A stretch of 64,000 nt of DNA from an endosymbiont of unidentified scaly snail isolate Monju (GTDB lineage Bacteria; Pseudomonadota; Gammaproteobacteria; Chromatiales; Chromatiaceae), in the NCBI RefSeq assembly GCF_000801295.1, contig NZ_AP012978.1:2046001-2110000 (forward strand), read 5' to 3'. Positions 23,894-27,400 of this stretch are shown here, in pieces. The notes under the pieces were generated by a model. That model made no database searches and was not told the origin of the DNA. It was given only the letters and a program-made list of their open reading frames with translations. Made by a program: the position numbers and the translations under genes. Position 1 is the first letter of the stretch. Every line of letters begins with the position of its first letter.

Positions 23894-24291
23894 TGGCTAC
23901 CCTGCTCGGCTTCGACTACGGGAGCCACAAGATCGGCGTGGCCGTCGGCCAGACCCTGACACAAAGCGCCAATCCCCTCACCACCTTGGGCAACCGACGC
24001 GGAAAGCCCGACTGGGAGCGCATCGGCACCCTGATCGAAGAATGGCAACCCGACGCCCTGGTGGTCGGCCATCCCTTCGAGATGACCGACCGCGAAGCAA
24101 ACAACGCCGAACCCGCCAAGCGATTCGCGCGCCAGCTGCACGGACGCTACCATCTGCCCGTGCACCTGATCGACGAGCGCCTGACCACGCGTGCGGCCTG
24201 GCTCGACCTGGGTGCGGAAGCAGCCCGCGATCCGACCCGCGTCGATGCCTGGGCTGCCAAACTGATACTCGAGACCTGGCTGAGACAATGA
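23893..24291 (+). CDS. ruvX: Holliday junction resolvase-like RuvX (YqgF)
   Basis: RNase H-fold nuclease of 132 residues, implicated in pre-16S rRNA 5' processing and junction resolution. It has LLGFDYGSHKIGVAVG with the first acidic residue, LVVGHPFEMT, and LIDERLTTRAA. The ATG at 23893 overlaps the yqgE stop; longer in-frame starts lie inside yqgE. Confidence 0.94.
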   Translation: MATLLGFDYGSHKIGVAVGQTLTQSANPLTTLGNRRGKPDWERIGTLIEEWQPDALVVGHPFEMTDREANNAEPAKRFARQLHGRYHLPVHLIDERLTTRAAWLDLGAEAARDPTRVDAWAAKLILETWLRQ

Positions 24292-24824
24292 CCGAGGCAC
24301 CACGACACATCTTCATGCAGCATGACGGCATCATCGACCTGATCGATGGCATGACCGGCATCCTGCGCCACTACCTGCGCGACCGCGAAATCGACGACCC
24401 CGCAATCATCGGCATCCACACCGGCGGGGCTTGGATCGCCCACGAGCTGCACCAGCGGCTGGACTGCCCCGGCCCGCTCGGTCTGCTCGACATCAGCTTC
24501 TACCGCGACGACTTCACGCGCATCGGTGTCAACCCGCAGGTCCGCCCCTCGCGCATCGAGTTCGATGTGGACGAGCGCAACATCGTACTGGTGGACGACG
24601 TGATCCAGAGCGGGCGCACCATCCGTGCGGCCATGAACGAGATCTTCGACTTCGGCCGACCGGCCAGTATCACCCTGGTCACCCTGATCGAGCGCAACGG
24701 CCGCCAGCTGCCCATCCAGCCCGACGTGGTCGGCCTGAGCCTGCCACTGCCCACGCACGAACACATCCGCCTCACCGGGCCCGAGACCTACAGCCTGGAG
24801 ATCAGCCGCCGCACCGATGCATGA
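24288..24824 (+). CDS. pyrR: PyrR bifunctional regulator / uracil phosphoribosyltransferase
   Basis: A 178-residue phosphoribosyltransferase-fold protein with the PRPP-binding loop VLVDDVIQSGRTIRAA. It begins at 24288 with a 4-bp overlap of the ruvX stop. In gram-positives PyrR controls pyr attenuation; in Pseudomonas the pyrR-pyrB-pyrC' arrangement exists, but regulation differs. No attenuator resembling the gram-positive type is seen before pyrB, where a repeat element intervenes. Confidence 0.93.
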   Translation: MTEAPRHIFMQHDGIIDLIDGMTGILRHYLRDREIDDPAIIGIHTGGAWIAHELHQRLDCPGPLGLLDISFYRDDFTRIGVNPQVRPSRIEFDVDERNIVLVDDVIQSGRTIRAAMNEIFDFGRPASITLVTLIERNGRQLPIQPDVVGLSLPLPTHEHIRLTGPETYSLEISRRTDA

Positions 24825-24832
24825 ATACGAAG

Positions 24833-24885
24833 GTTCGGCCCGGGGACGGGCCTCCTACGGTGGGAGTGGCGTCCTCGTCGCGAAC
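24833..24885. repeat. REP palindrome pair after pyrR
   Basis: Type A unit (24833-24858, inverted, head GTAGGAG at 24852-24858) has stem GGCCCG/CGGGCC with loop TCCC. It is directly followed by a type B unit (24859-24885) with a shorter stem around GTCCTC and tail CGAAC. The GTAG-type head and the CGAAC tail define the family; other copies are at 36173, 44275, 45408 and 57352. Confidence 0.85.
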
Positions 24886-24921
24886 ACTCCCTGCAAAGCA
24901 TGCGACCCGCCCCGCGGACTG

Positions 24922-25101
24922 TTACTGAGACAACCCTGAGTAAAGCGACACTCAGCGGGTCTCAGGGCGTTCAGCCACAAGGCGCACAGGCAGCAGGCAT
25001 GGCCATTCCATGTCAAGCCAGCGCAACACCGTGGATGGCCCCCCTGATGCCCGCCCACGGGGAGCGCTCTGAGCGTTGCTTTACTCAGGGTTGTCTCAGT
25101 A
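24922..25101. mobile_element. TA-flanked terminal-inverted-repeat element (MITE-like) at pyrB
   Basis: About 180 bp bounded by inverted repeats: 24 identical bases (24923-24946 against 25078-25101), then partial matching that extends the arms to about 33 bp. The outermost bases are TA on both sides, with CTGAGACAACCC as the arm start, which fits the TA target duplication of IS630/Tc1-mariner elements. The interior encodes nothing recognisable, so it would be non-autonomous. It separates pyrR from pyrB and ends 11 bp before the pyrB ATG. Confidence 0.75.
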
Positions 25102-25105
25102 CAAT
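25076..25105 (+). promoter_or_regulatory. candidate pyrB promoter in the right arm of the inserted element
   Basis: TTGCTT (25076-25081) and TACAAT (25100-25105) are 18 bp apart, and the pyrB ATG at 25113 lies seven bases beyond the -10 box, giving a leaderless or near-leaderless message. The -35 box and most of the spacer are terminal-repeat sequence. Confidence 0.5.
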
Positions 25106-25112
25106 GCGCGCA

Positions 25113-26099
25113 ATGGCGAGCGACAGACGACAGAACATCCAACTGACGCCGGATGGCCGCCTTCGCCATTTCCTGACCATCGAGGGACTGAGCCGCGAAC
25201 TGCTCACCCACATCCTCGACATCGCCGAGTCCTTCGCCACCCTGCCGGGCCGGCCGGTCAAGAAGGTTCCTGCGCTGCGTGGGCGCATCATCACCAACCT
25301 GTTCTTCGAGAACAGCACCCGCACCCGCACGACCTTCGAACTGGCCGCCAAGCGGCTGTCCGCCGACGTACTCAACTTCAATGCCAGCACTTCGGCCACC
25401 GCCAAGGGCGAGACCCTGCTGGACACCCTGCGCAACATCGAGGCGATGCACAGCGAGATGTTCGTGGTGCGCCACAGCCAGTCGGGCGCGGCGCATTTCA
25501 TTGCCCGCCATGCCGCCCCCGGCGTGAGCGTGATCAACGCCGGCGACGGCCGCCACGCCCACCCGACCCAGGCCATGCTGGACATGTTCACCATCCGCCG
25601 TCACAAGGGCGATTTCACCCCGCTGCGGGTGGCCATCGTCGGTGACATCCTGCACTCGCGGGTGGCACGCTCGCAGATCCTCGCCCTCAACACCCTGGGC
25701 GTGACCGAGGTGCGCGTGGTCGGCCCACGCACCCTGATCCCCACCGAGGCGCGGGCGCTGGGTGTGCACGTCTATCACGACCTCGACGAGGGCCTGCGCG
25801 ACGTGGACGTGGTCATCATGCTGCGCCTGCAGAAGGAACGCATGGATGGCGCCCTGCTGCCCAGCGAATCCGAATACTTCCGCCTCTACGGCCTGACCAA
25901 CAAGCGCCTGGAGGCGGCCAAGCCGGATGCCATCGTCATGCACCCCGGCCCCATGAACCGCGGCGTCGAGATGGACTCCGAGGTGGCCGACGGACCGCGC
26001 TCGGTGATCCTGCAACAGGTTAGCTACGGCATTGCAGTGCGCATGGCGGTCATGAGCCTGTGCATGCAGACCCATGCCGAGGAGCGGGGAGAGGCATGA
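25113..26099 (+). CDS. pyrB: aspartate carbamoyltransferase catalytic chain
   Basis: First committed step of pyrimidine synthesis. The 328 residues from the ATG at 25113 carry the carbamoyl phosphate loop [21 protein letters not shown] and [10 protein letters not shown]. An ATG at 25104 would add three residues. The frame stays open upstream through the repeat element to 24900, but that extension is not homologous. No strong ribosome site precedes the ATG. Coupled to pyrC' by a 4-bp overlap, as in the Pseudomonas-type PyrB-PyrC' complex. Confidence 0.97.
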
Positions 26100-27400
26100 A
26101 CATCAGCATCCTCAACGGCCGCCTGATCGACCCGGCCAACGGCATCGACGACACCCTGGACCTGCACATCCAGGGCCAGCAGATCCTCGCCATCGGCGCG
26201 GCGCCCGAAGGCTTCGAGGCACAGGAGACCATCGATGCCAGCGGCTGCATCGTCTGCCCGGGGCTGGTGGACATCGCCGCCTCGCTACGCGACCCCGGCC
26301 CCGGCCGTATCGACCTGGCCAGCGAGACTGCCGCTGCCGCGCGTGGTGGCATCACCACTCTGGTGTGCACCCCGGACACCCAACCGGTGATCGACACCCC
26401 TGCGGTGATCGAGCTGATCCACCGTACCGCGCGCAAGCTGCGACGCACCCGGGTACTGATCGCCGCCGCCCTCACCCAGGGACTGGACGGCCAGCAACTG
26501 GCCAACATGGCCGCGCTGGCCCGCGCCGGTGCGGTCGCCCTGAGCAATGCGCGACATCCGCTGGCCAACACCCTGGTCGAGCGCCGTGCCCTGGAGTATG
26601 CCGCCACCTTCGGCCTGACCGTGATGCTGCGCCCCGAGGACCCGCACCTGCGTGCCGGCGGCTGCGCGCACGAGGGCGCGGTGGCTACCCGACTGGGCCT
26701 GCCCGGCATCCCCAGTTGCGCCGAGACGGTGGCCGTGGCGCGCGACCTGGCGCTGGCCGAACACACCGGTGCCCGGGTGCATTTCCATGCCCTGTCCACG
26801 TCCGGCGCCGCCAACCAGCTGCGCGAGGCCCAGGCCGCGAAGCTGCCGGTCAGCGCCGATGTCGCCGCTCACCAGCTGCACCTGACCGAGATGGACATCG
26901 AAGGTTTCGACGCCGACTGCCACGTCTCGCCACCGCTGCGCACCCTGGCCGACCGCGAGGCCCTGCGCCAGGCGGTGGCCGACGGCACCATCGCGGCCAT
27001 CTGCTCTGATCACCAGCCCCACGAGCTGGACGCCAAGGAGGCTCCCTTCCCCGAGACCGCCCCCGGCATCTCGGGCCTCGAGACCCTGCTGGCGTTGACC
27101 CTGCGCCTGGTAGACGAAGGCGTGCTGTCACTCACCGAGGCCATCGCCCGGGTCACCTGCGGCCCGGCCGATCTGCTCGGCCTGCCCCATGGGCGGCTGG
27201 GCGCGGGCAGCCCCGCGGACGTCTGCATCTTCGAGCCCGACACCCCCTGGACACTGCACCGCTCGGCACTGTGCAGCGAGGGCCGCAACACCCCCTTCGA
27301 CGGCTGGGAATTCGAAGGCCAGGTCACCCATACCCTGTTCAACGGGCGCGTGGTCTACCGGCGCGACGCACGAGAACCCACCCAAGTGACCTCCAATTGA
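26096..27400 (+). CDS. pyrC': inactive dihydroorotase homologue PyrC' (aspartate transcarbamylase partner)
   Basis: A 434-residue amidohydrolase-fold protein of the type I dihydroorotase family. The segment that should read VDxHxHxRxPG is [13 protein letters not shown], so both histidines of the metal HxH motif are missing. The ICSDHQPHE segment keeps its aspartate and histidine. Non-catalytic PyrC' proteins are known in Pseudomonas, where they are needed to assemble the PyrB dodecamer, and the overlap with pyrB supports that role. An active dihydroorotase must be encoded elsewhere. Confidence 0.9.

Follow-up and report, generated by a model that had tools for sequence, protein, structure and literature searches.

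Before pyrB in the endosymbiont of the scaly snail isolate Monju lies a TA-flanked inverted repeat, and the locus raises the question whether this element supplies the promoter of pyrB, as the original prediction held, or has entered a promoter that the gene already possessed. We addressed it in a window of 64,000 nucleotides (the whole stretch of DNA analysed), using the rest of the genome (G000) and its relatives, among them seven other genomes of the same genus. The features concerned are as follows.

24288-24824, + strand: pyrR, bifunctional pyr regulator / uracil phosphoribosyltransferase family (NCBIfam NF003545 equivalog, 204 bits, cut-off 140)
24881-24924, + strand: left flank, upstream half of the native pyrB promoter, now stranded (ungapped alignment to the G003 empty site)
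24923-24955, + strand: left terminal inverted repeat including target TA (inverted-repeat and arm comparison)
24925-25099, + strand: MITE copy, short form, 175 bp between the TA copies (multi-copy family; empty site in relatives)
25069-25101, + strand: right terminal inverted repeat including target TA (inverted-repeat and arm comparison)
25076-25081, + strand: TTGCTT, element-borne -35 candidate, 18 bp before the -10 (from sequence)
25100-25105, + strand: TACAAT, native -10 of pyrB, its TA (25100-25101) being the right copy of the target duplication (same place in 7/7 element-free relatives)
25113-26099, + strand: pyrB, aspartate carbamoyltransferase catalytic subunit (NCBIfam NF002032, 414 bits, cut-off 263)

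The element and its family

Between TA copies at 24923-24924 and 25100-25101, the element comprises 175 bp without a transposase. Its arms of 33 nt match at 31/33 positions (94% complementary), and the first 24, counted from the outer ends and including the outer TA, are perfect, in agreement with the predicted 24 identical bases, about 33 in total, with TA at both ends. The hairpin of the element region has a predicted fold of -110 kcal/mol, and the RNA fold of 24924-25120 lies 7.8 standard deviations below 200 shuffles, none of which (0/200) folds as well. Because of this fold and of 12 loci of the element in the genome, the inverted repeat is real and beyond chance. An open frame through the element (ORF 24900-26099) is likewise present as predicted; it is incidental, because the shared start in the element-free relatives is the ATG that corresponds to 25113, and an N-terminal extension of PyrB was rejected.

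The 12 loci come from the search for further copies that the original prediction had proposed, in which a 187-base query gave 25 matching pieces, grouped by hand, in the single contig of 2,597,759 bases. Among 55 genomes, seven (own included) match at E up to 0.001, and matches below 1e-20 are confined to G000, G003 and G007, all of the same genus. Copies typically begin and end with CTGAGACAACCC...GGGTTGTCTCAG, and within a copy the ends stand about 270 bp or less apart; a looser end pattern retrieved an extra subfamily with CTAAG ends. A stricter end pattern, applied to 210 genomes of the order, matched four of them, namely the three above and, with a single match, G201. Over orthologous positions, and with the better-preserved genome taken for each end, we grouped the copies of G000, G003 and G007 by hand into 22 distinct sites, leaving out chance end-matches and the matches in G004, which belong to another repeat, mostly without TA; a TA stands outside 35 of the 42 ends that could be read by hand. 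Two neighbouring copies 1.2 kb apart in G000 and G007 flank a host gene that is present in relatives too.

The prediction had classed the element as non-autonomous and of IS630/Tc1-mariner type. Its non-autonomous state, TA duplication and multiple copies were upheld, whereas the IS630/Tc1-mariner label is carried by the TA duplication only, because the DDE_3 domain (PF13358) exceeded the cut-off in 0/8 genus genomes, with one weak match in G007 (a control search with PF13358 was positive in 3/14 known genomes). No autonomous partner combining the same terminal repeats with an IS630-type transposase was found in the eight genus genomes; such a partner may have been lost since, or may reside outside the genomes searched. 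The exact 23-base terminal repeat had no match in a genome contig collection and a 20-base piece none in a viral contig collection, in both of which records of the own genome may be absent, and no plasmid matched a 268-base stretch over a long-form copy.

Short and long forms occur at one and the same site (site B, L026 vs L167). In G003 the copy is long (about 268 bp), and in G000 it is short (about 178 bp) and lacks a second hairpin that GAGCGCTCTG-type direct repeats enclose; we propose parallel slippage or gene conversion as the origin of the two forms. The interior hairpin core also occurs with other terminal repeats in other families of the class (7/274 class genomes, with 11 matches in G234), for example at L257, L260, L262, L263, L265 and L266, where several copies, inspected by eye, again have TA at their ends. 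Perhaps these represent a wider superfamily with exchanged ends. The repeat in G004 (L181-L189, ten matches) is a different one with ends GGGTTTCCTTAG, mostly without TA.

Empty sites and the native -10 of pyrB

Comparison of the pyrR-pyrB region in relatives, a check suggested together with the prediction, found no element before pyrB in 7/7 other genus genomes. When the own flanks are joined with a single TA, they align to the empty site of G003 over 74 bases with no gap. The proposed insertion between pyrR and pyrB is thus borne out, and the comparison supports an entry with TA duplication after the split from the sister genomes. In six relatives a script placed the pyrR stop 42 to 117 bases before the pyrB ATG; it missed G007, where what looks like the end of pyrR is visible by eye. 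Of the named relatives, Chromatiaceae bacterium CTD079 (CP037918.1) is the nearest, with a PyrB 99% identical, and by this relationship the organism is not Pseudomonas. A REP-like palindrome (GGCCCGGGGACGGGCC ... GGAGTGGCGTCCTCGTCGCGA) occupies 24830-24885, after the pyrR stop and before the element, and a similar string is found upstream of a Nudix gene in G000.

A strong hairpin between pyrR and pyrB might also be read as an old regulatory structure of the pyr operon, a PyrR target or an attenuator, instead of a mobile element. Yet it is absent before pyrB in all the genus relatives, the element has 11 further loci in the genome, and the Rfam search of 24000-26200 gave no match up to E = 1. 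An ancient pyr hairpin is refuted by the empty sites, and we assign it next to no probability.

The same comparison bears on the promoter. In all seven relatives TG[CT]TACAAT stands 7 or 8 bases before the ATG, which shows that the putative -10 of pyrB is native and older than the element. The arrangement described by the prediction, with TTGCTT, a spacer of 18 bp, TACAAT, seven bases and the pyrB ATG, was confirmed at 25076-25081, 25100-25105 and 25113-25115. It had been taken to mean that the element brings a promoter, cuts pyrB from its old control and gives it a new, possibly leaderless start. In favour of this reading, TTGCTT lies in the right arm, 18 bp before TACAAT; but in the seven relatives both the hexamer and its spacing to the ATG are native, and only the upstream half is new, which makes it very unlikely. 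Both an element-borne -10 and a new leaderless start were therefore rejected, and of the predicted replacement of upstream control the part that stood is that the DNA upstream of the -10 is now the element's. The 'leaderless' character of pyrB is ancestral, because the element-free genomes share both TACAAT and the spacing to the ATG.

How far this character extends was read from 44 named pyrB loci, of which 43, including the seven genus relatives by sequence, were scored and one (L127) was dropped as partial. TAnnnT (at least 4 of 6) stands 5-9 bases from a start in 14/43, and 13 of these 14 belong to the 16 loci that the PyrB search gave at E = 0, with a spacing of 7-9 (L085-L098, L121); besides the seven genus relatives, six close pyrB loci have TAnnnT at 8-9 nt. 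The other 27 loci gave one TAnnnT match, probably by chance, and their pyrR end lies no more than 21 bases from the PyrB match in 16, more than 50 bases before it in seven and 26 bases inside it in one, and was not located in three. The leaderless-type promoter of pyrB thus seems to be an innovation of this group that predates the element. No ribosome-binding site is visible by eye before pyrB, and the downstream pyrC has one (GGGGAGAGGC ATG). From the position of the -10 and the usual distance between a -10 and the transcription start, the first base of the pyrB mRNA is expected at 25112 or 25113, corresponding to a 5' UTR of 0-1 nt.

In the left flank, the TG of the extended -10 is found at 24920-24921, directly before the left TA copy. 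CAG now precedes TACAAT in the own genome, because this TG was left beyond the element. At pyrB, the comparison of filled and empty sites shows an insertion, a duplication of TA, a native -10 and the loss of the TG. We consider it probable that a MITE inserted in the opening TA of the native -10 of pyrB, that the TA duplication rebuilt TACAAT while the upstream half was exchanged, and that the same has recurred at other genes. The transposase-less element of 175 bp would have landed on the TA that opens the hexamer; as insertions of this family duplicate the target TA, a complete TACAAT would remain on the side of pyrB, seven bases before the ATG, and the start point and the leader of 0-1 nt should stay unchanged. 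The native upstream half with its extended -10 (TGnTACAAT) would be stranded beyond the element and replaced by the terminal repeat. Transcription would then start from the rebuilt -10, presumably with some help from TTGCTT as a weak -35, and the element would add nothing to a pyrB message started there.

TTGCTT agrees with TTGACA at 3/6 positions, and a consensus promoter scan of 24780-25200 (9 of 12 needed) identified neither a promoter at TTGCTT nor a terminator-like site. At the -35 place of other element ends we read TCGCTT (FKBP, Nudix, K) and TGGCTT (bamD, purB), TTGCTT itself being present at pyrB, B and D; because of these differences, a conserved -35 is not a general feature of the element. 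TTGCTT may nevertheless serve as a weak candidate -35 for pyrB. Such a weak -35, together with the lost TG, could also mean that the promoter is broken and that pyrB lives mainly on read-through from pyrR via the strong hairpin. This is in line with the result of the scan, in which neither a consensus promoter nor a terminator-like site was found, and with a hairpin of that stability just before pyrB. Since TACAAT is intact, and since translation of a read-through message would be poor without coupling, pyrB having no visible ribosome-binding site of the kind seen at pyrC, we regard a broken promoter as unlikely.

Recurrence at other genes and choice of target

Insertion with rebuilding of the -10, the reading preferred above, can be followed at other element ends that face start codons. 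The hexamers across these ends are TACAAT at pyrB and FKBP, TATAAT at purB, TATGAT at Nudix and K, and TATACT at bamD, where the gene names other than pyrB were assigned by us from translated starts and not from family profiles, K denoting a small lipoprotein gene. Empty sites were compared for six sites (pyrB, bamD, purB, FKBP, Nudix and B). Where the gene was found, element-free relatives have TATACT at bamD in 5/5 and TATAAT at purB in 5/5, and TAnnnT at FKBP in 6/7, the seventh having GATAAT. TAnnnT is also present at Nudix in 6/7, with TATGAC in the seventh (G007). Before the unnamed gene of site B, 4/4 have TAnnnT, but at 28-29 vs 32 bases before the ATG. G005 gave no match for purB and G002 none for site B. 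At the lysA-like site D, the relatives have another gene directly upstream.

Junctions made with one TA are ungapped over 238 bases at FKBP and over 132 bases at Nudix, just 14 of the latter lying upstream; the purB junction, taken from the G007 copy since the G003 copy is broken on the far side, has gaps further on. At pyrB, FKBP, Nudix and purB (G007 copy), there is one TA in the empty site and two around the element. Judged from the hexamers of the relatives and from these junctions, an insertion that heals a putative -10 recurs at several further genes of the genus.

Two of these sites have features of their own. At the Nudix gene (G003:C1:2158914; orthologues L229, L214, L231, L216, L217, L226, L219 and L220), a -10-like hexamer stands 6-7 nt before the ATG in 8/8 genus genomes, G003 being the sole genome with the element inserted on it. 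At FKBP (G003:C1:643122, L167; L222, L215), a terminator-like hairpin with a T run begins about 4 nt past the -10 TACAAT, in the filled (G003) as well as in the empty (G000, G007) genomes.

How often such landings are to be expected depends on the background. A hexamer matching TATAAT in at least 5/6 positions is found at 6/22 sites, the other 16/22 being without one, vs 4.1% of the 932 TA of the window outside the element (p 1.9e-4). Against the intergenic TA of the window (15.4% of 117) the difference is not significant (p 0.11), and a second intergenic background (window plus 28 loci, other ORF caller; 26/291) gives p 0.011. Comparison with intergenic TA facing a start (8/291) yields p 2e-5, which is not relied on here, because the element sites were classified manually but the background with an ORF caller prone to extending starts too far. 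A TA-duplicating element that is kept out of genes will hit -10 boxes fairly often, because few TA occur in this GC-rich DNA and the intergenic ones often belong to -10 boxes. The target tests used the 35 ends with TA and left out the seven without. Outward TA hexamers starting with TAAC (target GTTA) make up 9/35, compared with 2.7% of all TA hexamers of the window and 2.1% of its intergenic ones (binomial p 3e-7 and 4e-8, respectively), so that the preference for GTTA is clearer than the excess of -10 boxes.

The landings on -10 boxes might accordingly be due to targeting by the transposase, either to GTTA or to easily melting promoter DNA, and not to selection. Both the TAAC excess and the enrichment over all TA of the window speak for it, but the value of p 0.11 against intergenic TA does not, and selection against genic insertion would give much of the pattern; we therefore hold it possible but somewhat doubtful. 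It is compatible with a rebuilt -10. More tentatively still, we speculate that the family might live by landing on -10 boxes: GTTA coincides with G-14 and the TA of an extended -10, the insertion would rebuild the box, leave start point and message as they were and exchange the upstream half only, and the transposase may prefer promoter DNA opened by RNA polymerase. If true, the -10 boxes of essential genes would be docking sites that the host tolerates, and nature would have repeatedly run the experiment of swapping the -35 side.

Relation to known elements

The empty sites go beyond resemblance in suggesting how a TA-duplicating element can sit in housekeeping promoters, namely by a duplication that rebuilds the -10. 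They provide parallel natural cases, filled and empty in sister genomes, at pyrB, purB, FKBP, Nudix and bamD, in which the upstream promoter half would have been exchanged and the -10 and the gene kept, and they uncover a conserved leaderless-type pyrB promoter in this group. Our literature search retrieved no description of a MITE splitting native -10 boxes, which is not a claim of absence from print.

MITEs with promoters are reviewed in PMC10969869, as far as its available text goes, and outward promoters were predicted for MITEAba12 in the available part of PMC6382973. The element shares its non-autonomous state and TA targets with RUP of Streptococcus pneumoniae, a 107-bp element which the accessible text of PMC2229807 proposes to be a MITE of IS630-Spn1. 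Unlike RUP, for which that text proposes an IS630 partner with similar ends, the family described here has no partner that we could find.

Correia elements of Neisseria (CREE/NEMIS) are also short, transposase-less, hairpin-forming and near genes, with a TA target duplication, a likeness read from their descriptions. According to the portion of PMC9330008 at hand, their common TA-type duplications resemble a -10 hexamer and make functional fusion promoters likelier. For uvrB, the available text of PMC10969869 states that, in E. coli tests, the promoter of a Correia element could serve the gene. In contrast to Correia elements, the putative -10 here is the host gene's own, as read from the empty sites, and the -35 of the element is weak or absent. 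The fusion (hybrid) promoters of IS elements, in which the same portion of PMC9330008 has the -35 supplied by the IS end and the -10 by the target, resemble our case in that the -10 comes from target DNA and the -35 side, here a candidate, from the element end. That source, to go by its title, concerns the activation of silent resistance genes, whereas pyrB, purB and bamD already had a -10, which would have been split and rebuilt. IS fusion promoters and Correia elements are thus the nearest known kinds, to which the present family adds a -10 that, by the evidence of empty sites at several genes, appears to be the gene's own.
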